From positions 9,238,001 to 9,302,000 of the forward strand of contig OY754476.1 of NCBI GenBank assembly GCA_963575645.1: DNA of 64,000 nucleotides, in the 5' to 3' direction. Of this stretch, positions 12,485-64,000 are shown piece after piece. Every line of letters starts with the position of its first letter. The first letter of the stretch is position 1. The translations under genes were made by a program, and so were the position numbers. The notes under the pieces were generated by a model that saw nothing but the letters and a program-made list of their open reading frames with translations, was not told where the DNA came from and searched no databases. The stretch is from Xanthostigma xanthostigma (lineage: Eukaryota > Arthropoda > Insecta > Raphidioptera > Raphidiidae).

Positions 12485-15400
12485 TTATGTTTTAACACCT
12501 TCCAATTTTCCTGCTTTCGTAGGTTCATTTATTCGTCCTCCAAATAAAATATGTACGTCCTCCGTGTCATAAATGTAGAATAGGAATGGATGATCAACTC
12601 TGAAGTGGGGCAAAGAATTACCAATCAGAGGAATGATCATGGCGCCTGTACTAGCTGCGGCGGTACTTCCTTGTTCATCCACATCGATCGCTACTTTATG
12701 CAATATTTTGCTCACTTGTATACTTGACTCATTTGTTATCATTCCAGATAAATTAGCAGAGTTAGTAAATAAATCTTTAATTCCAATCTGTGAAATAATA
12801 ATATAAGTGAGCCTAGCAGAGGTATATTTGTACGGGCGCAGTGTCAGATTAACGGAGACGCACAACAACCACGTCCTTGGGAACCCTTATCCTATCCAAT
12901 TTTGATATTTATAAACGTTGTATATTATTCTGTTCTTGGAGTTAAAAAAATTTCTGATTTTAATGAAGATTTGATGTACCGTCATCAGTATGAAAATGCC
13001 CACCGAAACTGGAAGTTCGTCAATTTTTGTTGTATAATACGCGCCACGGATCTAAAATGTTCGGAAGTTAGTCACAAACAGCGTCGCAAAGGCACATTTT
13101 AGAGCCGTTGATACTCCCACCACTTCCCAGCTACCTGCACGGAACGTGCGCTCGTCGGTGATTGGCCGTGATCGCTCGTTGCCCTTGTCACTTGTCGCTT
13201 TCCTGCTTTAAAGTACAGTCGAGTACGTTATTGTCAAGTTGTTATTGCTATTTTGGTTTTGTTGAGTTGCGAGTTTGTAGTTTTTCAACAGACTGTACAA
13301 GCGCAAGCCCGCATTCGCATCTAACTTCCGAGCCTTTTAGATTCGTGGCACGTATTATAAACGAGCCATCAAATTGGCTCCTAAGGAGTTTGCTAAAAGC
13401 AGGTGGTGGCCAATTTCGAGTGGCACTGAACTTAATAAATACATTGTTTATTTAGATTTTGGGGAAACCGTGGGAAATTTTTTAATCGAGATGACAGACA
13501 CTTCGCTTCAAAGGAATAGGAAAAGCTTTGGTCTTTATTTTATCTAGATTTCATAAAAAAAAATAATTTGCCATACCTGTGTAAGTGTAGGAACTAGGTT
13601 ATTAGTAAATTCGGCTTTGAACCGCGGCAAAGCCAGAAGAATTTCAGTTGTTTTAAGTTGAGATAAAATGTCGTTAATTGGAGTGGATTGCAAATTTCTT
13701 ACTAGTTGCTGTACTCCATCTCTTTTCTTCGGTAAAAGTACTAGCATAGCATATTTAGTGTCCTAAAAACATTGACATGTTTATGAATTAGAAATTCGTA
13801 GTATACAGAATGTTTTCGAAAAAAAAAAAGGGTTTTTTAAATGCTTCATTTTATACAGACGTAATTTACAGCATATCTTAAAAAATCCTGAATTTTCAGT
13901 CTCCCGTTGCGAGTGGCAGAAATTAAAAAAAAATGTTTTGAAAAAACTTGACCACCTTCAAAAAAAAATACGCGGAGAATAATCAAGTTTTTCGGTCGGC
14001 GTCAATTTAATTACTATAACAATCCGTAAACATTTTGAACAAAATGGTGTCGAAATTTTTCAAATCGGGTAACCCCTCGAAAAGTTATTTAAAAAAATAT
14101 ATGACGAATTGATAACCTCTTTTTTTGAAGTCGGTTAAAATTAATATTCTCGACTAAATTTATTGAGTGGAATTAGTTTCTGAAATATGAGTAACTGTTT
14201 TGAAAACACTCTGTATATTGTAATTTATATCTACGTGGTACAACGGACTAAGTTTTTTTTTACTTTGAAAGGTATTTTTATTGCAGACGAATCGAGTGTA
14301 GCAATATCGGCGTAACTGAAGTTATCCATAAGTTCCATTATGTAAGATTCTTGACAAATATTCAGTTTTGGATAAAAACATCTGACGAACGTGTCAGTTG
14401 CCGGAAACGTTTTTTCCCAAAGACCTTTGAAATATACTGCATTTAGAATCATCATTTTTGTATCCGTTGGGATGGAGCCTACGAATCAAAATAGTTTTCT
14501 GATTAGTCAGTAAAATTCCAAGAAGATCAGCCGAGCTCGAAAAGAGCCAACAGCATTTTGGTACCATGTTCTTCTGAAAGGACATCGACATGTAGGTAAC
14601 TCCGCGATAGTGCTGTATCATTCATAAAATCTAATGGGTAATCTAAAAAGAAATACATACCAGGTACAACGAGTCTAGTAATCAAGCCCTTAGTTTCAGC
14701 TGCAACCCAATTGTTTATTATATCTACTGAACTGGGATCTTTGAAATTCATAGGCTGGATATCCGTGAAATAATTTCGCTGTAAAGTAGTTCTATAGTTT
14801 TGGTTTGGTGTCAAACCATCCGCGTAAAATATCTTATTAGAACTTTCTATATGTACATTATTCGTCGCTCTCTAAAAAATATAGACCGAACTGTTCCATT
14901 AGTTATTGATGATATCTACTACACTGCGTTCACCATACAATCATGAACTGCTAAAGACGACAACTAATTATGTTCTGCCATGCTCTCTTCGATATTAATT
15001 AGGTATAACAGTCATGTTCTTATGGGAAACGCACGATATATATTTGAAAAATGTGTATAAACCTTTAACGATTGCAAATATTTAGAAACAAATGCCTGGC
15101 GGGATTTTGGATCTGCAGGAAGTTTTAGAGCTAATTGTAATTCCTGCGCAGTTTTTTCTCCAGCCCCTTCTAAAATCATTCCTAAAGTGGCTTTTACACT
15201 TGCTGGAGATACTAAAACATTGCCTGTCGGATGATCTTCCAAAAGTTTCTAAAAACAAAATGCGTATAGACTTTATTTAATTAGTAAGTAATGAGATTTT
15301 TTTAATTGATAGATTTATTTTTAAACGCAAGAGTTCGAAATTGTTTTTTTGTTTTCGAACTTTAGGAGTTAAAATATTTATTTTTTACGGTTATAACACC

Positions 15401-18400
15401 CACTCCCTGGATTGTGAAAAGTTTCTGGAGCGTGTATTAAGGTGACATCGGAAAATATTTGTTTTATTTTAATTTACCTGAACCAACTCTTGATCAAAAC
15501 TATTGAATCTATCATTAGCATCTGTTCTGACTGGTACGTTTACTGATCCTGGAATGTTATTTGAAACTGCTTCCCCTGGGTACTGTGGGAAATTAGGGGG
15601 ATTTGGCAATTGAGTATTTTGATTTTGAATACCAGATTGGCCAATGTTAACATTATTAACATTACTTCCGGCATTATTAGTTGGTAGTCTAATTCCCTGA
15701 GGATTTTCTATTTTTCCAAAAAACAGAACTGTGCCATTGAGTTCATCTTCAATTAAAAATAAGAATGGATGGGTGGCATTGAAAGTGTGTTCCGGCGTAC
15801 CGAACTTAGTTCCGATTTGTACATCTAGAAACATTAATTAAAAAATATAGCTACTTGGTTTCAATTGAAATAGTGTCAAAGACGATCATATATTGGCGAA
15901 TCTAGTTTGTCTGCCAACATAATGACCTCTGGTGGTAAATTCACATACGGTCCAAATGCGAAATAACAAACCTGTAGCTGCAAAAGCTTCCGTTCCTTGT
16001 TCATTTACTTCAATTCCAGATTTTTGTATCACATCTGAAACAATAAGCTGTTTTGGAAGTCCTTTACCACGATCTATTCCCGGTAAACTAACCGAGTTTT
16101 CAAATATATTATGGATTCCCAACTGAAAAAACACAATTATTTTCATAACTGAAATGATAAAACAATATATAGTATTTGTTACAAAATATTAAATACTTGT
16201 TCCAGGAGTGTTCGTAATCTAGCTGTAAATTCGAAAGTAAATTTTGGTAATGTCACTTCTACTACGAGATTATCCATCATTTTTACTTGCTCGTGGAAAT
16301 TTTCTGAAGTAATTTCATTTAGCAATTGCGTTAAGCCATTCACATTTTTTGGTAAAATCACGTACATGGCAAATCTCCCTCCCTGTAAACACAGCACCAA
16401 AATAATATTTGACGATTTGAAGAAATTCGCAATATTATTTTTCGTACCTTGTAAGGAAGTCGTACTATTTTAGAATTTAGTCGAACAGAGTCGCAATAAT
16501 AATACTGTCCAGTATTACTTATAAAGTAACTATTTACTGCTTGTGTAGGGTTTACATTAAAAAACCCTACATGGGTACGAATCAAAGGAAATTCTTGACT
16601 CCAAACACCTTTGAAGTAAACAGCGTTTAGTAAAAGCATTACAGCATCGTTCAAATCATCTGTAAAAAAATTTTTTAGAAAATTTAAAAATGACACATAG
16701 ATGAAGTACAATATTTATTTTTTGCTTCAGGGCTGTGACAATGTCTTGAGGTGACTTCCTACTATAGGAACGTAACGTAGTGATTGGAACGATGATTTAT
16801 TTAGATTTAGTATGTTGGTGAGTAAATGTCGTTCAACACGTCGTTCGCAATGCTCGTGTAGTAGGAACCGACTTTATTTGTATAGATTGTGTACGACTAT
16901 TTTTTTTATAATTTATTTTACTTTCATACCTTCACTAACCATGTGGGATATTTTTCCTTGGGTTGCGTTTCTAACCCATTGATTTATAATGTCTTTACTT
17001 CTAACATCTTTAAATTCAATCATTTCGACGTTAGTTTTGTATGCTGATGACAATACGGCTGAGTACTTTTGTAGCGCCGTAAAGGAATTATCTAAATAAA
17101 CACGACTTCCCAACTTGAGAATGTAATCGTTGTTCGGAATCTAAAATTTCTATTATTTAAGTTGGCATTTAGAAATTACAAAGTATATAATTTGATAGAT
17201 TTTTTTTGTCCCTATAAAACAGCTGCTTTTCATGTACAGTATGTATACTGGTCGTAAAGTGACCCTTTTCAGGCCAGTGACGATCCGGGCGATAAAGTAG
17301 CTTTACCGTCCGCTTACAAAGTATTTCTTTTTCAATTTATTATTTCTAACAATAAATAAAAGTGGAATTCAATAATTTCAATATATCATATTACTCCAGA
17401 CGGAGGCGAATTTGCGATCTTGTGAACAGTATATATTACAAAATACATTATACACACTATGCGTGTAACAGCATAGAAACTACTATTCATAATTGATGTT
17501 AAGTTTGCTACACAAGTGAAACGTCACAATTAAAAAATGAGTGTTAAAAAAACTGGAAACGACGACGAGAGCCGCTGTTTTATAGGGTATAGGACGAAAA
17601 ATATAATGTGTATCTAAGGTGCAATGCGATTTCGACATGTGTGATTGGTCAAAATAATCATCATTACACGATCTACTATTAATGTAGGCCAAATATATTA
17701 CTAGAACAATACAACAACCTGCAATGAATCTATAATTGAGGCAAATCTTGTTCTCATTTCTTCAATGTCTTCTGGGAACTGTAGCATTGTTCTTAATTCT
17801 TTTTCAGTGCTCCCAGCTGCTCCTTCACGAAGCATTGCAAGGACCAATTTAACACTCAGTGGTGAAATCACCATATTGGTACCCCGTGTAAATTTTGATA
17901 AAGTCTGAAAAAGCGTAAATTTAAATTTGAAATCATAATAAAAATACATGACTTGTTTTTTTGATGCTTGAAAGCTAAATCTGAATTTTGTATTTCGTAA
18001 CCATGAACTCATAATATTAGCAATAATTAAAAAAAAATTATAGCTCGAAATGTTGATATTCACCGTTGATAGTATCCATTCAAAATAATCTTGTCTTGCG
18101 CCTTGATAAGGGGTAAAAATTTCAACGTTATCAGCACGATAAGTTAATGTAGAATTTGTTCTTCTGGGGTATACCCTATTTCGTAAACCGCTATTCGCTT
18201 CATTGTTGTATAAATATTGTTGCCTGGCATATATTGTTGGCAAAATGTATAAAAGAATAGCAAAAAATGTACGTATCACTAAAAAAAAACAATAAAAACC
18301 TTAGTTTTATAATTAAGTTGTCGACAGTATTTTATGCAAAAGGGAGGTGGACGCCAGAAGCTACTAAAATATTTTTCTGAATGCATCAATCATTTGTTAT

Positions 18401-19521
18401 AATAATAAAAACTTTTTCCATGTGCACAAAAATTATTACAGAAAAAAAAATATTTCGAAATTAACCTACTCAACTTGGCAAGCTAGTGCTAGGGTAGGAT
18501 TATTGTATATGTATATGTGTCAGTATATGTGTTTTTATTCCATATACTAAAAAGATATATCTAATGAAAAAAAATTGCAATAATTCATACATAAATATAA
18601 ATTCGTACAATTTTATTGTGTCACTGATTAAAAATAATAAAAAAAATATTATTTTCTCGTTGAGATTAAGTTTAATGTAAATACAGTTAAAAAAGACAGG
18701 TTATTTAAAATAGAGAAATGCAAATTTTACAAAAATAACAACAACAAAAATCAGCGAGATTTATCTACATTTGGTTCTGAATTGGTGTATCCATTAAATT
18801 TAAACAGCGATTGTAAATTGGCCGGCATTGCAATTTGCGATCAACCGGCACAGGTCAGCGTTAAAAATAAAATAATGTTATTTGAAGACCCTGTTTTGTA
18901 GATGAAAGAACTAAAGAAGTATCAAGGTATTTCCATGCATTTATACTTTATATAAATAATTTGGAATTTCCAGCCCACTAAACTGTAAATACCATGATAT
19001 ATATATACGCTAGGTACTAGGTACTAGAAATACTACCTATACGTAAATTGCAAATTTACAGAATGTGTATCGACAGGAATCGATGTACTTACAATCATTA
19101 ATTACACAAATTATTGTTGTTTTGTTCAAAAATTTCAATGACGTCACAAAAACTAAACACATTAAATTGATAGATTTGTGAATATCTTTAGAAATTTCAT
19201 AATTTTTGTATGATTATTAAATTTGAAAAATGAAATGAAAACGCGGTTTACTAGCAGAAACATTTTTATAACGTACTAACATCTATATAAGTCGATTCGT
19301 TTTTGTTTCATATGAAAATGATCTTGAAAATCTTTTTAAAAAATCACAAATAAAAATATTTTAAAGTGATTAGGTATTACATTTTGCACCACTTTTTCGT
19401 ATTTGAAATTAAAACATAACTTTTTAATTGCAAATGAAGCAAATTAGATAATAGTATAATACGAGTATTAGAAAAAATAACTTAGTGTTATAAAAAAAAA
19501 CAAGTAATACATACCAGACAT
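12485..19521 (-). CDS. Secreted double-domain serpin (two serpin units in one polypeptide)
   Basis: Thirteen coding exons, all with GT/AG borders and matching phases: 19515-19521, 18064-18278, 17719-17904, 16930-17140, 16448-16659, 16197-16382, 15972-16122, 15478-15824, 15063-15248, 14661-14871, 14264-14478, 13577-13762 and 12485-12787. They give about 871 residues. Residues 1-20 are a signal peptide (MSVIRTFFAILLYILPTIYA). Serpin domain 1 spans about 60-431, an Asn/Gln/Pro-rich linker about 432-494, and domain 2 about 495-871. Both domains keep the family landmarks (NxVxSPxSVK helix B, LLNAVYFKG / ILNAVYFKG, HPFLF near the C-terminus) and both have small-residue hinges typical of inhibitors. 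The last linker exon encodes helix A of domain 2 (FNSFDQELVQ) and splices straight into its helix B, so the halves are one frame rather than neighbouring genes. The 7-nt first exon (ATG TCT G, then GTATGT donor) is the least certain part. Serpins trap serine proteases covalently; this one should act in hemolymph or another extracellular fluid. Confidence 0.92.
12611..12676 (-). other. Reactive-centre loop of serpin domain 2 (predicted P1 Leu)
   Basis: The hinge EQGSTAAAST has the short side chains needed for loop insertion. It is followed by GAMIIPLIGNS. By the same count Leu825 is P1 (codon 12628-12626), with Ile at P1' and Pro at P2. A Leu P1 suggests chymotrypsin- or elastase-like proteases, unlike domain 1. 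Confidence 0.68.
13035..13357. mobile_element. TA-flanked MITE, family M, copy 3, in the last serpin intron
   Basis: Starts TAATACGCGCCACGGATCT, ends AGATTCGTGGCACGTATTA, flanked by TA. It is 323 bases, the same length as the copy at 7348-7670, in the opposite orientation. It lies between the exons at 13577-13762 and 12485-12787 and does not touch either splice site. Confidence 0.85.
13850..14135. repeat. Repeat of the GAAGTCGGTTAAA type in a serpin intron
   Basis: Contains 'AAATTTTTCAAATCGG', 'GATAACCTC' and the end 'GAAGTCGGTTAAA', wording I associate with a very abundant lepidopteran repeat. It lies in the intron between exons 13577-13762 and 14264-14478. Its 5' limit is unclear. Confidence 0.45.
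15783..15999 (-). other. Reactive-centre loop of serpin domain 1 (predicted P1 Lys)
   Basis: The hinge EQGTEAFAAT fits the inhibitory pattern (Gly at P15, Thr at P14, small residues at P12-P9 apart from Phe at P11). It continues DVQIGTKFG across the exon 7/8 junction. Counting from the hinge Glu as P17 puts Lys396 at P1 (codon 15807-15805) and Phe at P1'. A basic P1 predicts trypsin-like targets, such as clip-domain proteases, but this is inferred from counting only. The loop is split by an intron in this domain and not in domain 2. Confidence 0.7.
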
Positions 19522-26549: not shown

Positions 26550-29500
26550 TCATATATTTAAGCAGCGCAACGTTTTTTCAGGCACATGAGCAGTAAATTG
26601 GAATGTGTCGGGTCTCGGCAAAACATTCGCTGCAGCTTGATCTTGTAACTGACGTTCGTCTTGCGATGGTCTTCTTTGGGGAACTACGCTGTCACCCATT
26701 AACGTATCCAAACTGATATTTAATTCTTTTATTCGTGATCGTACTAAATATTCTAATGTAAATAAATGTTCATCAACAGCTTCTGGGATAGTGTCTCTCA
26801 TGAAACTGGCCAAACGTATTAAATATTCTACATTATGGCCACTAGGACCCTTGGAGTCGGCTATTTGCGTTGCTATTTCATGTAACGGAGCCTCGCCTAG
26901 CCATTGGTCGTTGTTTGGAGTTGCTATATACAGAAGAACTGGGAAAGGTTGAATTGTGGTACTCGTTTCAGAATCCATATTATGGTGGGGATAGAATGTC
27001 GTAAATTGCGTCAGGTAACCGCCTAGGCGACATTCCCTCGTGTTTAAATATGGTAAAGCTGCTTCACCTCTAACTTCGTAAGCTCGACCCCAAACCACGC
27101 TCTGGAAATAAGATAAAAATATCGTCAGTGAAAGTTCATTGAAAATCGAAAATATCAAAGTGACAAAATTGTTACAATAGAAAATGCTAATGTTAGGATA
27201 CAACAATGAATAAATAACGAAAACAAAATATAATATTTTAAATCAACCCAATCGATGTGGTTGTATATATACTAAATCCCACTCATTCTGTCTATGTTTT
27301 GTTTTATAAATACAATTCCTATACTAGAGATAAGAAAGATTAAATAATTTATATTGACACGTTACTATGTAGTATGTATTACCAAATCATAACATTCAAC
27401 AATAATTAATTCATACAACACTAAGTGAATAAGATAAGTTTGTAGACTGAGAGATTATAGACGCTAGACAACAAATATCATAGGCGTTATGCTGAATTAC
27501 AGACTTCCAAGTATTTTCATTAGCTTTATTTAGCCAACTGCCAACGTACGTAATTTTCCGTATGTTTTGAACATATTAACAGTTAATAATTAAGTACACA
27601 CATTTTGACGTGATAACGTCTTATAAATTGATGAAACACCAGCTGCACGCACGAAAAAGTGTAACGTTCCGCCTGACCCTGTGCGTGCAAGCGAGAGCGC
27701 AGTAATGTATTATTAAATATGATATTCGAGCGGAATATGTTATCACGTAAAACTATCGTCCGTAAACCGACTTTACAGACAACCAATTTTTTTAATTAGT
27801 CAACTGTTTGCCCTAGACCTTGAAACCGCGAGTCAGTTGAAATTTGCATATTTATACTATAAATTCGAAATTGAAGGAATGTGTTATACCTACACTTATA
27901 TTTGAAAATCTATACTAATATTATAAAGAGGTAAAGTTTGGATGTAGGAAGTAGTCTCCCAAACAACTCATCCGATTTCAAATTTTTTTTCGACAATATT
28001 TAGAATGAACCGTCAAGCGTTAGAATAAAAGCGTTTTTCGTGATGACCAATTTTGCAACGTAAGTCGACGTAAAAACGGTGGTAATCTACAAATCGAGCG
28101 AAATCGCTAGTGTTAATATGAGTGACATAGTTTGTATGCATGGCACGGGTATTTTTCATTGCTTTGCCGTTCCAATAAGCGAACTGTACTATAATAATGA
28201 ATAACTCCATGCTAGTACTTTACTATACTACATGCAGGAATATGAAATGCTTACCTCTTTTTCTTCTACTAAGGTAGCGACTCTGCCAGGCTGGAAATAA
28301 ATAAAAACACAATGTAATTAATTGAACACAATTTCAATATCGTTTAAATAATACTGAAATGAAGTTGATTTGAACTAAGATCAGTAGATTAGACTTTGAA
28401 ACATTTTTTTAAAGAAAACTTCGAGAGTTCTAAGAAGCAATTTAATTCAATATGTTATATGAGTATCTATATCAAAAATTATAAATTAATCTCGTCACTT
28501 CTGTTAATACGATAGTCTTTGAATGTCAACTTCCTGATAATTTAATACGTTAATGATTGTGTCATTACAATAATAATATAATAATAATGTCTAAGAGATA
28601 CAGTATCGGTAAAAATATTGAGATATTGTTTTTCTTGATTTATTTTGTTTATTTATTGTTACATAACCAATCTCAGTTCTTTGAAAATAGAGATATATAA
28701 TAATTTGTATAAATCAATTTATTTAGAAAAATAATGTCGCAGTTCAGTTCAAAGAAATATTGCGATGGAACACTTGACTTTTGTACTTTTCCGAGAATTT
28801 AATCAATTACTTATGCCTGACTATATTTTTATATACACAATACAAGTTTAAAATTGTATTTAAAACAAGAATTTAGAAGAAACATGTAAACGTCAAATCT
28901 CCTGCGCAAAACTTGTATGAGAAAATAGGTGACCTCGACAGCGATTCAGAGAACTTATAAATTCGAGCCAGGAATTCATCTTGACGATCCATTTTATGAC
29001 GGTTCATTGAAGTTCATTGTGCTAACAATAAGTTTAATACGCCATATCGAAAAGGCTACTTAACAAATTTATATCAGCATTTCAAGCCACTTGTAAGTAA
29101 TCTACTTAATAAAACTCTAAACTGACTGACTGACTGACAACGCAAAGCCTAAACGGGTGGGATCTAGAAAATGGAATTTTGCACAAGCGTTCCTTCTATA
29201 ACGCATGTGAGCACCAAGAAAGAAGTTTTGAAAATTCATCCCCTAACAGGGTGAAATATTTAATCTATAATTATAAATTAAATTTTAGATGATACTAAAA
29301 ATTGCAGACATCTGATAAATAGCCAACAAATAATACTGTAAATACGGTTGTATAAAACATTGTTTCATTTCAATCGCGTGCGGGTAGTGGCTAGTAATCT
29401 ATACTAATATATAAAACTGAAGAGTTTGTTTGTTTGTTTGGTTGAACGCGCTAATCTCAGAAACTACTACTTCGAATTGATTTTTTTTTGTTGAATAGTC

Positions 29501-38600: not shown

Positions 38601-41600
38601 TATATAAGAGAAAATTTATTGAAGGAGATTTATTTGGTTGAGGAACAATTGAAAAATAAGCTTTACCACAGTAAAATATATTTTTCGAAACATTGACCAC
38701 AAGCGATACTCTGGTAAAGCTTATTTTTCAATTGTTCCTCAACCAAATAAATCTCCTTCAGTACATATTTTTGGAACTAAACTTCTACAAACAGAAAACT
38801 TATTGTTGATATTAGACAAATTACAATCAACAATGAGTGAATTGGTTGTTTATAGATAAGAACGTGTGTTGTGTATTAGGAACCGACAGTCCAGCCGCTA
38901 TCAAGAAAAGCCTTTACGAGAAGAATGGAGTCGCTGTTTGCTCACAGAAACGAGCTCTCTTCATTGCAGCACTTGTGTTCGCTGCCTTGTTCGCGATATC
39001 ACTCATCATCGCTTACACCGGACCTCAGAGTGGTAAATAACAATTATTTACCGAAATTCTGCTTTCATTTATTGACATTAACAGCGTCCCATAAATACGC
39101 TACTTACATTACTATTCATATTATCAAAAAAAAAAAGAAATTCAAATCTTTGATTAACGTCTGATTATTGAAAAAAAAGAAACTTTAATATTATACTAGC
39201 GGTCCGTCCCGGTTTTACCCGGGTGCGATAGATGTAATTCTGCAAAATGTATTTTAGCTTTGAGCAAATTCTATCATTTATCGCTGCTTGGTACTAAAAC
39301 AGTTTTTTTTTGTTTGCTTCTGAACTAATAGCTTTGAATAAATTCTCTCAGATGTCGTTACGTGTCACTAAAACAGCTTTTTTGAGAAAATACCGTAATT
39401 TTGTACAAAATATTTATAGCGTAAGTTGCACCAAGTAAAACACATTTCCAAAATTTAATTAAAATCTGTTCATTGTTTCCGGCCAAAATTGTGACACGGG
39501 AATCTACTAATATGTAAGGCTGATGAGTTTGTTTGATTGAACGCGCTAATCGCAGGAACTACTGGTTGGCATTGAAATTTTTTTTGTTGGATAGTCCATT
39601 TATCGAGGAAGGCTATAGGCTATATAATGTCACGCTACAACCAATAGGAGAGGAGCATCAATAAAAAATATTGCAAAATATAACTCATAATTTGTCCGTC
39701 CGACAAAAACTTTTGAACGGTAACTCCGATCATCATGAAATTTGAACACAACATTCATCTCAGTAAACTAAGATGAATGTGCGTACTCATGTACCTCCCC
39801 CTCACCATTTGTTCTTTTGCACCCGGGTGAAACCGGGCGAGACCGCTAGTATAATATAGATTTCCGATAACCAGCGTTTCGGTCATTTCTAAATAATTCG
39901 CGGAAAATCTACTCTAGTTAACTCACTCGTGTAGTTTTTTTTTTCAAAAACCGACGAACGCTTAATATTTTTCCTGAGTTTCATGTTTGTAGCTTAAGCA
40001 GTAATAATAATTATTTCAGGTTTACTTTCTTACCTATCGTTGGAGTCTCCATATAATTTTTATTATATTCCAATTTAATTTTGAAATTTTTCGGAAAACT
40101 GATTTGGTGATTACAATTTATTAAATTTTCACTTAAATTTTAATATTTATTTGTGTCTAATATTGCCACTTGCACCAACGCATCATAAAATTTAACCCTA
40201 AAATCAGCTTTTTCTTTAAAATTAGATATCTTTAAAATTAACTGACATAGTTTAATTTAATTAAAGAAATAAGTTTACGTGAATTAAAAAATGTATATGT
40301 TCTCATCGTAGTTTAAACTTTGATAAATGCGGCTATTGATGTAGAGCGATCATAAAAAGATTCAAATTATAGCGTGATGAAAATTTAGATTGCAGCTGTG
40401 CTGGTGAGAAACCGGTCAACTTTGTCGATGAAGAATCTAACACATCGAAGCCATTTGTTCCATTGGCAACAAATGGACAAGAATTTCCGTGGCACAACGT
40501 TAGACTCCCAAATTTCATTAGACCTTCACGGTATAACATAACAATTCGCCCAAATTTGACTACCCTCGACGTGAAAGGTAAAACAATTAAAAAACATAAT
40601 TAAATAATAAAATAAAATTATATTTTCATTATTAATATGTCGTTAAATCTATTTTTGTTTTATTTTTAGGCCAAGTTAATATTGAATTTCATGTCGAAAA
40701 AGATACAAATTTTATAGTTTTTCATAGTAAAAATCTGACAATAACCGATAAGGTATGACAAAGTTAATAACAATAATTACAATATCATAGTAAGGAATGT
40801 ACTGGCAAAACCAGCCTCGTATGCAAAGGCCCTAACACTTTCTGAAGCCAGTTTTGTTATTGCTTTCCTTGACTTATTGATAGTCCCATTTTGTTTTACC
40901 TTGATTTGATAATCTTGTCTTACTGGCTTCAACAAGGGATAGTATACTATAGTAATGTCGGTTTAATCGAACTAGAACATAGGTACAAAAATTAAGGGGT
41001 TAGCAGACCGTATAAGAGTGCTATGGATAATGTGAAGTATATTTTAAATCTTAATTTATTTCAGTTATTACAAGACAAAAAAGGACATTCAATGAAAATA
41101 GTAAAATTACTTGAATACCCCCCTGCACAGCAAATATACCTTGAAACCAAAGACAAATTTCGCAAACGCGAAAATTACACCCTAAGTTTAAGATATTCAA
41201 CACGACTTTCGAGGGATTTAGAAGGTTTTTACATATCGAGTTATGTTGGAGCAGACGGCGAACGTAAATACATTGCGACGACTCATTTTGAGCCAACTTA
41301 CGCTCGAACAGCGTTTCCTTGTTTTGATGAACCACAGTTAAAAGCTCGATTTAAAATATCAATATTGCGAGATCGATTTCATATTGCTCTGTGTAATATG
41401 CCTGTAATTATTACTGAAGATACAGGATTTTACATGGGAATGGGCTTAGTAAGTTGTCGATAGATATGAAATAAGTGACGATTAATCAGTAATCATTAGA
41501 ATGTAATAGGATTATTTTTCATTGAACATGAATTGGAAACGAACAGTTCGCTGATTAGTAATTAATTTAGTGTTTTTTTGAAAGAGTCAGAAGTTGTTTT

Positions 41601-44600
41601 TTGTTATCACATCTGAACATGTTTTTGCATCCAGAAATTTTTCCCATTACCGGATGAGCTGGAAAGTAGAAACTATAGATATAATGATCCTAAACTAACG
41701 TAAAAATTTCGAAGTTCGGAAATTTTTAACAGTTGTCCAGTTTTACGCTGATAATTCTAGAACAAGCATATCAAAAAGATTTAGTTCTTCGGTCACGCCA
41801 TAGGTCATGAAATTGTTCAAATAAATTAAGAACTGTAGGAGTAATTACTGTTTAATCGTTACTTCATTTACTTTTTTAGTAATTGAAAAATATGGATAAT
41901 AATGGTTATATTTCTGATTATTTCAGTTGAGGGATGTTTTTCAAGAATCAGTTGAAATGAGTACATATCTTGTAGCGTTTGTTGTGTGTGATTACACACG
42001 AGTGAATAATAAAACAAAAAACAACGTATCAGTTTCAGTTTATGCGCCTAAAACACTTTTAAATCAAACAAGATTTGCTTTAGAGACGGCTACTAAAGTT
42101 ATGGATTATTTTGAAAACTTTTTTATGGTTCCTTATCCTTTACCAAAACAAGGTTATTATGTTTTTTTTAAAATTTTTGAAAAATTAGGATACAGCAAAA
42201 CTTCAATTACAGAACAGCTTGTTTTGATGTCGAATGAGATTTTTTTGGTTAATATTGTGTAGCCTTACTTTTTTCAATTCATGTACCCAAATAAAGTGGC
42301 TAATAGGTAATGTCTAGATACTCGAAGTTCTACTTTTCTTTAAACGCGTGTGACATCATGATAATCCTAAATAAAACCTCATTCAATTGACACCTTCGGA
42401 TCAAATTACGTGCTTAAAAATTATATCCATATTCTATATGTCTACCTAATCAAAACGTCTATAATATATGAAATTTAGATATGGAAGAATGAAATCCATT
42501 TTGATATCTTGGCTAGTTTTGACTTACAAGTAATAATACTCTGTTAATTCATTGAATAGGAACTGACTTGATTCTATATTGTGATTATAAAGAACATAAT
42601 TAAATGCTTAATATATTTTAGACTTAATCGCGATCCCAGATTTTGCGGCTGGAGCTATGGAGAACTGGGGTCTTATTACATATCGTGAAACTGCTATCTT
42701 GTACGATCCCGTGGAGACATCAACAACTGCCCATCAGTGGGTTGCAGTTGTTGTAACGCATGAATTAGCTCATCAAGTATGTTGTGTACAGTTACTAGCA
42801 TTTACCCCACAGTGACGGATTAAGGCCCTTGGAAGCTCCTTGCACAGAAATCTCGTTGGCTTCCGACGCCTTGATTTGGAAGGTAGAAAGTAACTCAACG
42901 TGTATCAAAATCAATGTTCTCCGTTAATCCGCCACTGTTTCTATCCGTCCACATTTGGTCGCACCGTCATATCTTATAATTTTGTTAGGTAGAAAATTGA
43001 GATATCTACCGCGGCTGCCATCGCGATTTATGTAATTATAAGACAAAGTGACTTATGTTAAATTTTTAATGAAATACGATTAATAACAATTCCGATCGTA
43101 TATAGTTATCGTAATGAATATATGAGTGGCACTTCTGTTCTTTCTCATTGCAGTCAACAACAGAATGCTAAGTTGTCACGTATCATGGAGAGCTGTCTGT
43201 TTTGATATTTCGGTTTTTTTTTCAATAGAACTCAGATGTAGATAAAACATTTTTGTTAATCTATCTGGATATATTAAACAAAAAAATAAGCACGTTTTTT
43301 ATCATGTTGGAATTGAAGAGCCCAGATGTGGACAATTATTACAAGTCTTTTTATTTTTTATTTGGTACTGTTAATTTGATAATTAAATGATTAGAAATTG
43401 TACTTTATAGTGGTTTGGTAATCTGGTGACAATGAAATGGTGGAATGATTTATGGCTAAATGAAGGTTTTTCGAGTTTCCTTGAATATCTGGGTGTCGAT
43501 GCAATATATCCTGAATGGCATATGATGGAACAATTTATACTTGATAAAACACAATCAGCATTAGAATTAGACGCTTTAGCAAGTAGTCATCCAATATCAG
43601 TTGAAGTTCATGACCCGACTGAAATAGAAGCGATTTTTGATACAATCTCTTACAATAAAGTAAGTCATCCTGATTTATTTTTACATAATGAAAAATGTCA
43701 ATTTAGGGGGAACTGATTGCGATTAAAAAAAGAGTTGATGGAATTAATAGATAGATTATTATAGACGCTCCATTGGTTCTTGATACGAGAAACGATCTTT
43801 ACTTTATTGGTTTTGCCTATTTTAGGGTGCCTGTGTTTTGTACATGTTGGAAAAGTTTTTAACGAGAGACACATTGCGTCAAGGTTTGAACGATTATTTA
43901 AATGTATATAAATATAGCAATGCGGACACAAAAGAATTATGGAATGTGTTTAGTAAGCATTCAAATCAATCTCTTGAAGTAAAAGCCATTATGGATACTT
44001 GGACACAGCAGATGGGGTTTCCACTAATTACTTTATCGAGAGATGGGACTACAATTACCGCGACACAAGAACGATTTCTTATGACAAGTGAAGCAAATTT
44101 AACCATAAAGACCGAACCAAAATCAGCGTTCGGGTATAAATGGTATGTTCCTCTGACATATTATACCGATCAAGAACCTGACGTAATTTATAATGTTTGG
44201 ATGAATATGAGCGATGGTAAATACATTTTTGTACAGTTTTTTTGCTCTTTATTTAACGGAAATATCAAATAACAAAAATATACCGGTTGCAGTGAAATTC
44301 GAAGTTGCGCCAGAAGTGCAGTGGATTAAATTAAACGTTAATCAGTCAGGTTTTTATCGTACGATGTATGACGACACAATGTGGGCTGGAATAATTGATA
44401 CGCTTCGAGAAAATCACACTTTATTTAGTGCGGCTGATAGAGCTAATCTTATAGACGATGCGTTTACGCTTTGCAGGTACTATACGTATCATTTTAATAG
44501 AATTATGTGATTTAAACTTTTTTTTAAATCTGTTTTTTATCATAAGAAGAATACATTTCGTTATATTTTATGCAGTGGCGGATTTGCCTTAAGGCCCCGT

Positions 44601-62600: not shown

Positions 62601-63515
62601 TTTGATTTAATGTATGTAGCTATCCAGAATTTATTTCTTTCTGTGATCTTTTTAATATTCTATTTCAGGTGTTAATGGTAGTAATTCCACAGTGGGCTCC
62701 ACCCAACGTTATGTTCCTGATTTAGCAGAAATACAGCGTAATATTGCTCACTATAATGACCTACAAACAGTGTACAATGAAGATATATTTGGACCTTTAC
62801 AAAACGATTCCCTAATTATTGTCGTACAGGTGTGTTAGATTTGTTTTAAAAATTAGAAGAGATTAGAAATTGACTTCTGCAAAAAAGCCGCCGTCCGACA
62901 ATTTTGATTTTAGAATAATAAGTACACCATTACTATGTCGCATCTACCGTCTACATTTTCCTGTCATTTTCTACGTTTTTAAACACATCGAAATCTCGAG
63001 AAATGCCACTCGAGACAACGTGACGTTTGACTTGAACATAGGATGGCGTGCTGAGTTATCAGAAAATGTTCCGTAATGTTATTTCCGTTAATAGTTCTGC
63101 TCTGAAATAACTAACGTTTTTTTTTAGGTTCACACCCGTACGACATATTTACGACATTTGATAGTAAGTTTAGCTCAAGTTCGTGGTATTGAAAAAGCAC
63201 TGATTGTATTTTCTCACGATTTCTATGACGATGAAATTAATGATTTAGTACAAAGTGTGGATTTTTGTAAAGTGATGCAGATATTTTATCCATTTTCAAT
63301 TCAAACGCATCCACATGAATTTCCTGGTGAAGATCCTGCCGATTGTCCAAGAGATATTAAACAAGAACAGGCACTAATTTTAAAATGTAATAATGCCTTA
63401 TATCCCGACCTTTATGGCCATTACAGAGAAGCTAAGTTTACTCAAACAAAACATCATTGGTGGTGGAAGGCCAATCGAGTTTTTAATCAGCTAGAAGTAA
63501 CAAGAAATCATACAG
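53667..63515 (+). CDS. Mgat2: Mgat2, N-acetylglucosaminyltransferase II (first three coding exons, continues beyond the window)
   Basis: Exons 53667-53919, 62669-62829 and 63128-63515 join in phases 1, 0 and 1 to give the first 267 residues. The 3' part lies outside. The enzyme (glycosyltransferase family 16) adds beta-1,2-GlcNAc to the alpha-1,6 mannose arm in the Golgi, the step to complex N-glycans. After a basic tail, residues about 15-37 form the signal anchor (MRLVLCVFVATFLWLQL). The catalytic domain shows QVHTRTTYLRHLIVSL, FSHDFYDDEIN, YPFSIQTHPHEFPGEDP, DCPRDI and GHYREAKFTQTKHHWWWK, closely following human MGAT2. The acidic metal-binding motif expected later is not in view. The ATG at 53667 is chosen because it precedes the anchor in frame; Met7 is an alternative. 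Intron 1 is 8.7 kb and full of repeats, whereas the mammalian coding region is intronless. Exon 3 ends at AATCATACAG/GTATGT. Confidence 0.96.
53920..54871. other. Start of Mgat2 intron 1, no feature seen
   Basis: AT-rich intron. A 93-codon plus-strand frame at 54209-54490 is hydrophobic and low in complexity, without a recognised domain. Confidence 0.5.
54872..55096 (-). repeat. Interspersed repeat family P, copy 3, in Mgat2 intron 1
   Basis: Reverse-strand copy of 24174-24394, nearly full length, from TTGGTTGTCTGTAAAGTCGG to AAGACGTTATCACGTCAAAA. Confidence 0.8.
55097..56930. other. Mgat2 intron 1, no gene seen
   Basis: No coding exon, RNA gene or bounded repeat recognised. A GGGGACCCCTAGGCCC... 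stretch near 56282-56320 resembles repeat debris. Confidence 0.45.
56931..57268 (+). mobile_element. Helitron, family A, degraded ends, in Mgat2 intron 1
   Basis: The interior matches the intact copies (GGTTGAACGCGCCAATCTCAG, GATAGCCCATTTATCGAGG). The TC 5' end is lost and the terminal CTAG has become CCAG. Confidence 0.75.
57271..57601 (+). mobile_element. Helitron, family D, directly behind the family A copy
   Basis: Runs from ATATTAAACAAAGTCCCTC to CCCGGGTGAAACCGGACCGGG and then CCGCTAG, followed by T. The interior (AACTATCGAACGGATTTTC, GAGCGATAAACGAGGAAGG) matches the reverse strand of 59397-59666. The 5' end is not canonical. Confidence 0.68.
57602..58390. other. Mgat2 intron 1, no gene seen
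   Basis: AT-rich sequence. The short plus-strand frame at 57887-58075 has no recognised domain. Confidence 0.45.
58395..58458 (+). mobile_element. Helitron family B 3' end fragment
   Basis: Ends CGTGCGAAACCGCTGGTAGCG and then ACTAG, followed by T, with a CGCT/AGCG stem. The 5' limit is unclear. Confidence 0.5.
59397..59666 (-). mobile_element. Helitron, family D, minus strand, in Mgat2 intron 1
   Basis: The plus strand reads CTAGCGGCCCGTCCCGGTTTC at the element's 3' end and GAGGGACTTTGTTTCATTG at its 5' end. It is the inverted relative of 57271-57601, slightly shorter because of internal deletions near the hairpin. Confidence 0.7.
59667..62668. other. Remainder of Mgat2 intron 1
   Basis: No exon recognised. 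About 61090-61175 carries a GC-richer segment (CTCGACGATCGTTTCGGACAA ... CTTCAGGAGTCGAG) that looks like an old repeat end. A small (CATA)n run lies near 61872-61890. A single repeat end CAGAGCCGGATTTAGG at about 62003 resembles the hAT MITE at 21556. Confidence 0.45.
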
Positions 63516-64000
63516 GTATGTGTACAGCACGAGTCAAATGTCCGTTTTTGCGTTGTTTAAATAGAATTTAATTGAAATGCTTAGAATGTTCTGAAATATG
63601 TCGCGTTTTAGTTAAAATAACCCATCAAATCCATAGAATTGTATGATATTTTGTTTTTTGTGTCAAAATTGTGCGGGGTTCAGTCGCTTGTACATCGTCA
63701 GATGTAGCTACCAACAGTATAGTCCCGAGTAGAACAACTACTCGCTGAAATACACAACTGAGGTATGCCAAGACACGGTTGTTCACTGTTCATATGAGAC
63801 TGTACTCTTCAAGCGCGAATGCCAAACAAGCGCCTTGATCGTTAGTTCGAGCGAAAGTAAAACATAATTTTGTATATTTTTTATTTTACACTACATACTA
63901 TTTCTCAAAACTACCACCCCCTAAAATCTGCCACTAGACCTTGGCCTATTGGTAAATCCGCCGCTGAATAAGAGAAAGGATGAAAAAGACTACAGAATGA
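63516..64000. other. Mgat2 intron 3 (incomplete), with a hAT-type right end
   Basis: No exon seen. GGTAAATCCGCCGCTG at about 63951-63966 looks like the right terminal repeat of a CAGYGGCGGATTT hAT MITE. Its left end was not found. Confidence 0.45.

Follow-up and report, generated by a model that had tools for sequence, protein, structure and literature searches.

The question raised by this locus is whether the minus-strand exons spread from position 19521 to position 12485 of the window (the whole stretch of Xanthostigma xanthostigma DNA analysed here, 64,000 nucleotides long) encode one secreted protein with two complete serpin domains, as a preliminary description had proposed, and what such a protein would inhibit. 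The premise that serpins are normally single-domain is true as a rule, yet a survey of insect serpin genes reports 45 genes with several serpin domains (PMC10513286).

The reconstruction of all exons yielded 13 exons with 2616 coding bases and 871 residues; each of the 12 introns starts with GT and ends with AG, the phases are compatible, and the sole stop codon of the frame is the terminal one. Exon 1 (19515-19521, this and all following exons on the minus strand) carries the ATG and the first 7 coding bases, ends at a GT donor and is in phase with exon 2 (18064-18278), which encodes the remaining signal peptide (MSVIRTFFAILLYILPTIYA, residues 1-20, with peptide and cleavage site assigned by eye), the N-terminal tail and the start of helix A of domain 1. 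Domain 1 continues through exons 3 (17719-17904), 4 (16930-17140), 5 (16448-16659) and 6 (16197-16382), placed by the rebuilt frame and orthologue alignment, and exon 7 (15972-16122), placed additionally by the loop count, which takes the hinge up to P8. Exon 8 (15478-15824) holds the remaining part of reactive loop 1, the end of domain 1, the linker (15696-15529) and the first part of helix A of domain 2. The second domain is then encoded by exons 9 (15063-15248), 10 (14661-14871) and 12 (13577-13762), again supported by frame and orthologue alignment, by exon 11 (14264-14478), which contains Cys671 and Cys679 (14380-14354), and by exon 13 (12485-12787), with the domain end, the entire reactive loop 2 and the stop codon.

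The Pfam family Serpin (PF00079) matched this protein twice, with E 1.4e-187 for the whole protein and the best stretch spanning profile positions 4-370 of 370; no Pfam family besides Serpin was found in the 871 residues at E 0.001, and NCBIfam returned no family for domain 1 or domain 2. The proposal of thirteen in-phase exons joining a signal peptide and two serpin domains was borne out by the rebuilt frame, the GT-AG introns and the two Pfam matches, and the two-serpin gene is thereby confirmed as a sequence-based gene model. The layout comprises the signal peptide (1-20), domain 1 (about 53-432), the linker (433-488) and domain 2 (about 489-862), giving a mass of 95.6 kDa without the signal peptide; between the two domains, 119 of 372 aligned residues (32%) are identical. 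Leaving out the first junction, within the signal peptide, 11 of the 12 exon junctions (2-12) align on both sides with five orthologues, which makes a chance joining of exons very unlikely.

When the window was scanned with both domains, only weak matches (E 1.7 or worse) appeared outside the gene, and a Pfam scan of the genome placed no further serpin match within the 64 kb; across the 623 Mb in 28 contigs there were at least 58 exon-level serpin matches, the best ones on other contigs. Other coding stretches in the window resemble ChaC (26550-27242), MGAT2 (63128-63571) and an M1 aminopeptidase in two pieces (40996-41463 and 43826-44272). Intron 12 contains an inverted repeat pair at 13033-13359 (39 bases, 90% complementary, 249 bases apart) that looks like a small transposable element.

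The search for two-serpin-domain orthologues in other insects, suggested in the preliminary description, was productive. From 7988 candidates scored, 261 proteins reached E 0.001 or better, and among the best 120 of these the first 29 were two-serpin insect proteins or sequences like them. Twenty-eight were counted as twin relatives: 14 from Hymenoptera, 8 from Coleoptera, one each from a lacewing, a planthopper and the moth Plodia (a doubtful model), and P0005, P0016 and P0028. The Anopheles stephensi protein P0027 was excluded from the twin counts because two genes seem to have been joined in its model, and the bird and fruit-fly multi-serpin models P0030-P0032 were excluded as not of this type. 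Query cover was 90-98% for 27 of the 28 relatives and 49% for Plodia, and identity to the Xanthostigma protein ranged from 35 to 46% in domain 1 and from 33 to 40% in domain 2.

A structure model was obtained for the Carabus orthologue from a 27-row alignment (mean pLDDT 73, pTM 0.48). Both halves presented a serpin-like order of strands and helices, the linker (408-463) and the reactive loops (358-374 and 790-803) being of low confidence, and given the pTM of 0.48 the model does not predict their mutual arrangement. With this model as query, Foldseek found 415 matches (E 0.001 or better); the best 50 were all serpins, and Drosophila Serpin 42Da and Anopheles SRPN2 ranked near the top.

In inhibitory serpins the hinge carries Glu at P17, Gly at P15, Thr or Ser at P14 and mostly small residues from P12 to P9. 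This pattern was found in both domains (GTEAFAAT and GSTAAAST), in agreement with the inhibitory-type hinges noted earlier: Gly at P15, Thr or Ser at P14 and mostly small residues after. The exception is Phe at P11 of domain 1, a position that is aromatic (Phe, Tyr or Trp) in every one of the 29 twin first domains. Counting 14 residues after the P15 Gly, the predicted P1 is Lys396 in domain 1 (15805-15807, minus strand; P1' Phe) and Leu825 in domain 2 (12626-12628, minus strand; P1' Ile). These are the residues originally predicted, and the same kind of P1 recurs in all 28 relatives: among the 29 twins, including the Xanthostigma protein, the first domain has a basic P1 throughout (Lys in 28, Arg in 1) and the second always has Leu. 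The P1' position varies more, being Phe (14), Ile (10), Val (3) or Met (2) in first domains and Met (15), Ile (8), Ser (4) or Ala (2) in second domains.

Both domains would trap proteases covalently through the usual serpin mechanism. It might instead be argued that one domain alone is an active inhibitor and the other a structural or binding module, and five bee sequences (5 of 29 rows) do carry Asp at P9 of the domain 2 hinge together with a changed loop, which might weaken inhibition there. The Xanthostigma protein is without this substitution, both of its hinges match the inhibitory pattern, each domain keeps its kind of P1 across the twins, and both domains of the Tenebrio twin serpin SPN93 are reported to form complexes in passages of PMC10629668 and PMC5691223, so this division of labour retains a small probability.

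A pair of cysteines in domain 2 (671 and 679 in the window protein; 14354-14380) is found in 26 of the 29 twins and is missing in Chrysoperla, Lycorma and P0028; none was seen at the matching place in the first domains examined. The two residues could form a disulphide, at a site that we take from serpin anatomy to be near the gate hairpin.

The region between the domains decides whether they are truly tethered. The linker comprises 56 residues (433-488), including 13 Asn and 8 Pro; it is Asn/Pro-rich, where the preliminary description had Asn/Gln/Pro-rich, and the length, given there as about 60 residues, is 56 by the present cut. Helix A of domain 2 had been assigned wholly to the linker exon; its first part is indeed on exon 8, and the helix is split over exons 8 and 9, since intron 8 cuts it just as the matching intron 2 cuts helix A of domain 1. 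The claim that domain 2 lacks a start of its own holds within these exons, given that the residues encoded by exon 8 include no Met and the earliest Met in domain 2 is residue 529, while an alternative first exon elsewhere is possible; introns 7 and 8 showed no alternative start for domain 2. If intron 8 were kept, the frame would end two residues past exon 8. An AATAAA stands at 15468, about 10 bases into this intron. In AT-rich DNA this motif is frequent by chance.

It might be supposed that two adjacent single-domain serpin genes were wrongly joined by gene modelling, and such joined models probably occur: in P0027 of Anopheles stephensi another signal-peptide-like stretch separates the two domains, of which the second matches SRPN2, and both this protein and the Bactrocera model P0031 look like adjacent genes merged by annotation. 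The Plodia fusion is doubtful because its linker resembles, by eye, a buried signal peptide. Moreover, separate halves exist elsewhere. P0121 is a D1-only protein resembling domain 1 of the click beetle Ignelater, with a linker stub at its end, and P0239 and P0240 are D2-only proteins, each with its own signal peptide, P0239 resembling Ignelater domain 2 and keeping a linker-like stretch. Against a wrong joining in Xanthostigma, a single open frame in exon 8, free of stop codons and Met, runs from the last part of domain 1 through the linker into domain 2, and the 229 bases of intron 8 hold a single ATG that opens a 3-residue frame; in addition, the twin-domain proteins P0005, P0016 and P0028 come from contigs of 2.7-3.8 kb, a size that would suit spliced transcripts. 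A modelling artefact is thus very improbable, and the separate halves suggest rather that the tether has been cut in some lineages, or that separate isoforms occur in some species.

The relation of the two halves to single-domain serpins was addressed by searches with each domain and by phylogenetic trees. Among the best 120 of 1569 matches, domain 1 alone first found beetle, locust, sandfly and fly 27A-like or 'serpin 2'-like proteins, and its best solved structure match was Anopheles SRPN2, with Lys-Phe at the aligned bond. Domain 2 alone found few close single-domain relatives among the best 120 of 591 matches, namely P0239 and P0240. A quick tree was built from 102 rows: both domains of the 29 twins, the SRPN2 half of P0027 and 43 single-domain rows hand-picked from the search matches listed. 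Two careful trees of 69 rows each, holding 20 and 18 twins, were obtained by dropping 33 of the 102 rows and by dropping 36 and adding 3, respectively, rows being dropped for long branches, odd composition, partial length or near-duplication; TmSPN93 was not among the rows of any tree.

First domains clustered with single-domain 27A-like (Spn27A/SRPN2) serpins, with support of 99 in the quick tree and 100/99 in both careful trees, and second domains formed a cluster that also took in P0239, P0240 and the louse protein P0202, all three single-domain (96 in the quick tree and 100/99 in both careful trees). The two Xanthostigma domains fell in the D1 and D2 clades of their twin relatives, respectively (100/99, 100/99). 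The D1 and D2 clades were sisters (86 in the quick tree, 97/91 and 100/96 in the careful trees), which points to a probable origin of the twin through duplication of a single serpin unit early in insects, and some lineages may later have split it apart or lost one half. Of the five domain 2 introns, four coincide exactly with domain 1 introns in the alignment and the fifth is off by one residue, the reactive-loop intron of domain 1 having no counterpart in domain 2. As proof of duplication these matching introns are weakened: on the same contig, at a distance of 4.4 Mb, a distant serpin gene that is close to neither domain is interrupted at similar profile positions.

A clade of twin first domains alone was rejected (p-AU 4.8e-06), which places the beetle single-domain 27A-like genes, as far as the trees go, inside the twin D1 clade. 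Holding flies and locust outside the twins and beetle single-domain genes was not rejected (p-AU 0.165), and the position of dipteran Spn27A inside that clade is not settled by the tree alone; for both tests, the constrained groups were named after the trees had been seen, which makes the p values softer than they look. The case for loss in flies comes from the occurrence of twins in Hemiptera (one planthopper) and Holometabola. It is possible, at somewhat less than even chances, that the twin is ancestral for at least Hemiptera and Holometabola, that Spn27A/SRPN2 is its detached first half and that the lost head was replaced. The ancestor would have been a two-headed brake, with one head against a terminal Lys/Arg-preferring protease and the other against a Leu-preferring initiator, and in flies and mosquitoes other P1-Leu serpins such as Necrotic may have taken the place of the partner head lost by Spn27A/SRPN2. 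No statement that Spn27A is half of an older twin was found in the open-licence literature searched, and one may be published. On this tentative reading, the trees would tie a textbook regulator, Spn27A, to one half of an older two-headed inhibitor.

Descent of domain 2 from the ancestral gene of Necrotic (Spn43Ac), with the twin as a Spn27A-Necrotic fusion, is suggested by the P1 Leu that both carry in a VPL or IPL motif and by their shared encounter with ModSP-type proteases, and is hardly probable, given that a Bactrocera domain (a stand-in called Necrotic-like from its motif and Leu-Ser bond only) is placed outside both the D2 clade and the whole D1+D2 clade (100/96), and forcing it together with P0259 into D2 costs 28 log units, a weak rejection (p-AU 0.042) of a group named after the tree. 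As a candidate, fly Necrotic was accordingly set aside as an orthologue of domain 2, the shared P1 Leu being suggestive and the tree, with the Bactrocera stand-in only and p-AU 0.042, against it.

The gene is very probably a twin serpin of the SPN93 type, and this identity forms, together with the putative dual covalent trapping, cascade targets and early-duplication origin, the joint best explanation of the data. Judged from its sequence, the protein is most likely a negative regulator of the Toll/melanization cascade, and its likely targets would be cascade proteases of the SPE/PAP type and of the modular type, not digestive trypsin or chymotrypsin. Domain 1, of the Spn27A/SRPN2 clade and with a Lys-Phe bond, would trap the trypsin-like CLIP protease that acts last in the cascade (SPE/PAP type). 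Domain 2, with its Leu-Ile bond, would trap a Leu-preferring initiating modular protease (ModSP/HP14/MSP) and perhaps also a second protease (SAE/HP21/cSP48). A single molecule could thereby restrain the Toll and melanization cascade at both of its ends, at a fixed 1:1 dose. According to passages of PMC10732536, ModSP prefers P1 Leu and is inhibited by the P1-Leu serpin Necrotic, which also inhibits the trypsin-like Grass, so that P1 alone is insufficient to fix serpin targets. In an excerpt of PMC10671500, Manduca serpin-12 is cited as an HP14 inhibitor, the P1 of serpin-12 genes being Leu. Pairing Lys with the terminal enzyme and Leu with the initiator would make a coherent reading, because the reports on SPN93 targets, the P1 prediction for the wasp protein PpSPI3 and the P1 Leu of serpin-12 with HP14 all fit it. 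The preservation of a basic and a Leu P1 across 29 twins turns this into a firm prediction of two fixed target types.

The preliminary description left open whether orthologues were already described; they are, as Tenebrio SPN93 and Pteromalus PpSPI3 (passages of PMC10629668 and PMC5691223). The Xanthostigma gene belongs to this known insect twin-serpin family, described in a beetle and a wasp, and adds another insect to it. Tenebrio molitor SPN93 is a characterised twin serpin of 93 kDa that restrains the Toll immune cascade (Jiang et al. 2011, cited through PMC10629668, PMC5691223 and PMC10545863). Its N-terminal domain complexes SPE and its C-terminal domain complexes MSP and SAE according to a passage of PMC10629668, whereas PMC5691223 differs in giving SPE and, for the C-terminal domain, SAE alone; an excerpt of PMC10545863 cites SPN93 for inhibiting phenoloxidase activation. 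Both SPN93 and the window protein have two tandem complete serpin domains and a similar mass (93 and 95.6 kDa), a likeness with another species drawn by description. Similarly, PpSPI3 of Pteromalus puparum is a twin-domain serpin for which one passage of PMC5691223 predicts P1 Lys in domain 1 and Leu in domain 2, another sentence giving, ambiguously, Lys; the same order of Lys then Leu was found in the window protein, this likeness with another species again being by description. Among single-domain serpins, Spn27A, Anopheles SRPN2 and the beetle 27A-like proteins share the clade of domain 1 but are without a second domain; SRPN2 and Spn27A have the Lys-Phe bond of domain 1, Drosophila Spn27A being given as K/F in a table of PMC2770083. 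Drosophila Necrotic, by contrast, resembles domain 2 in its P1 Leu and in the predicted inhibition of a ModSP-type protease, ModSP being inhibited by Necrotic according to PMC10732536, but is a single-domain serpin.
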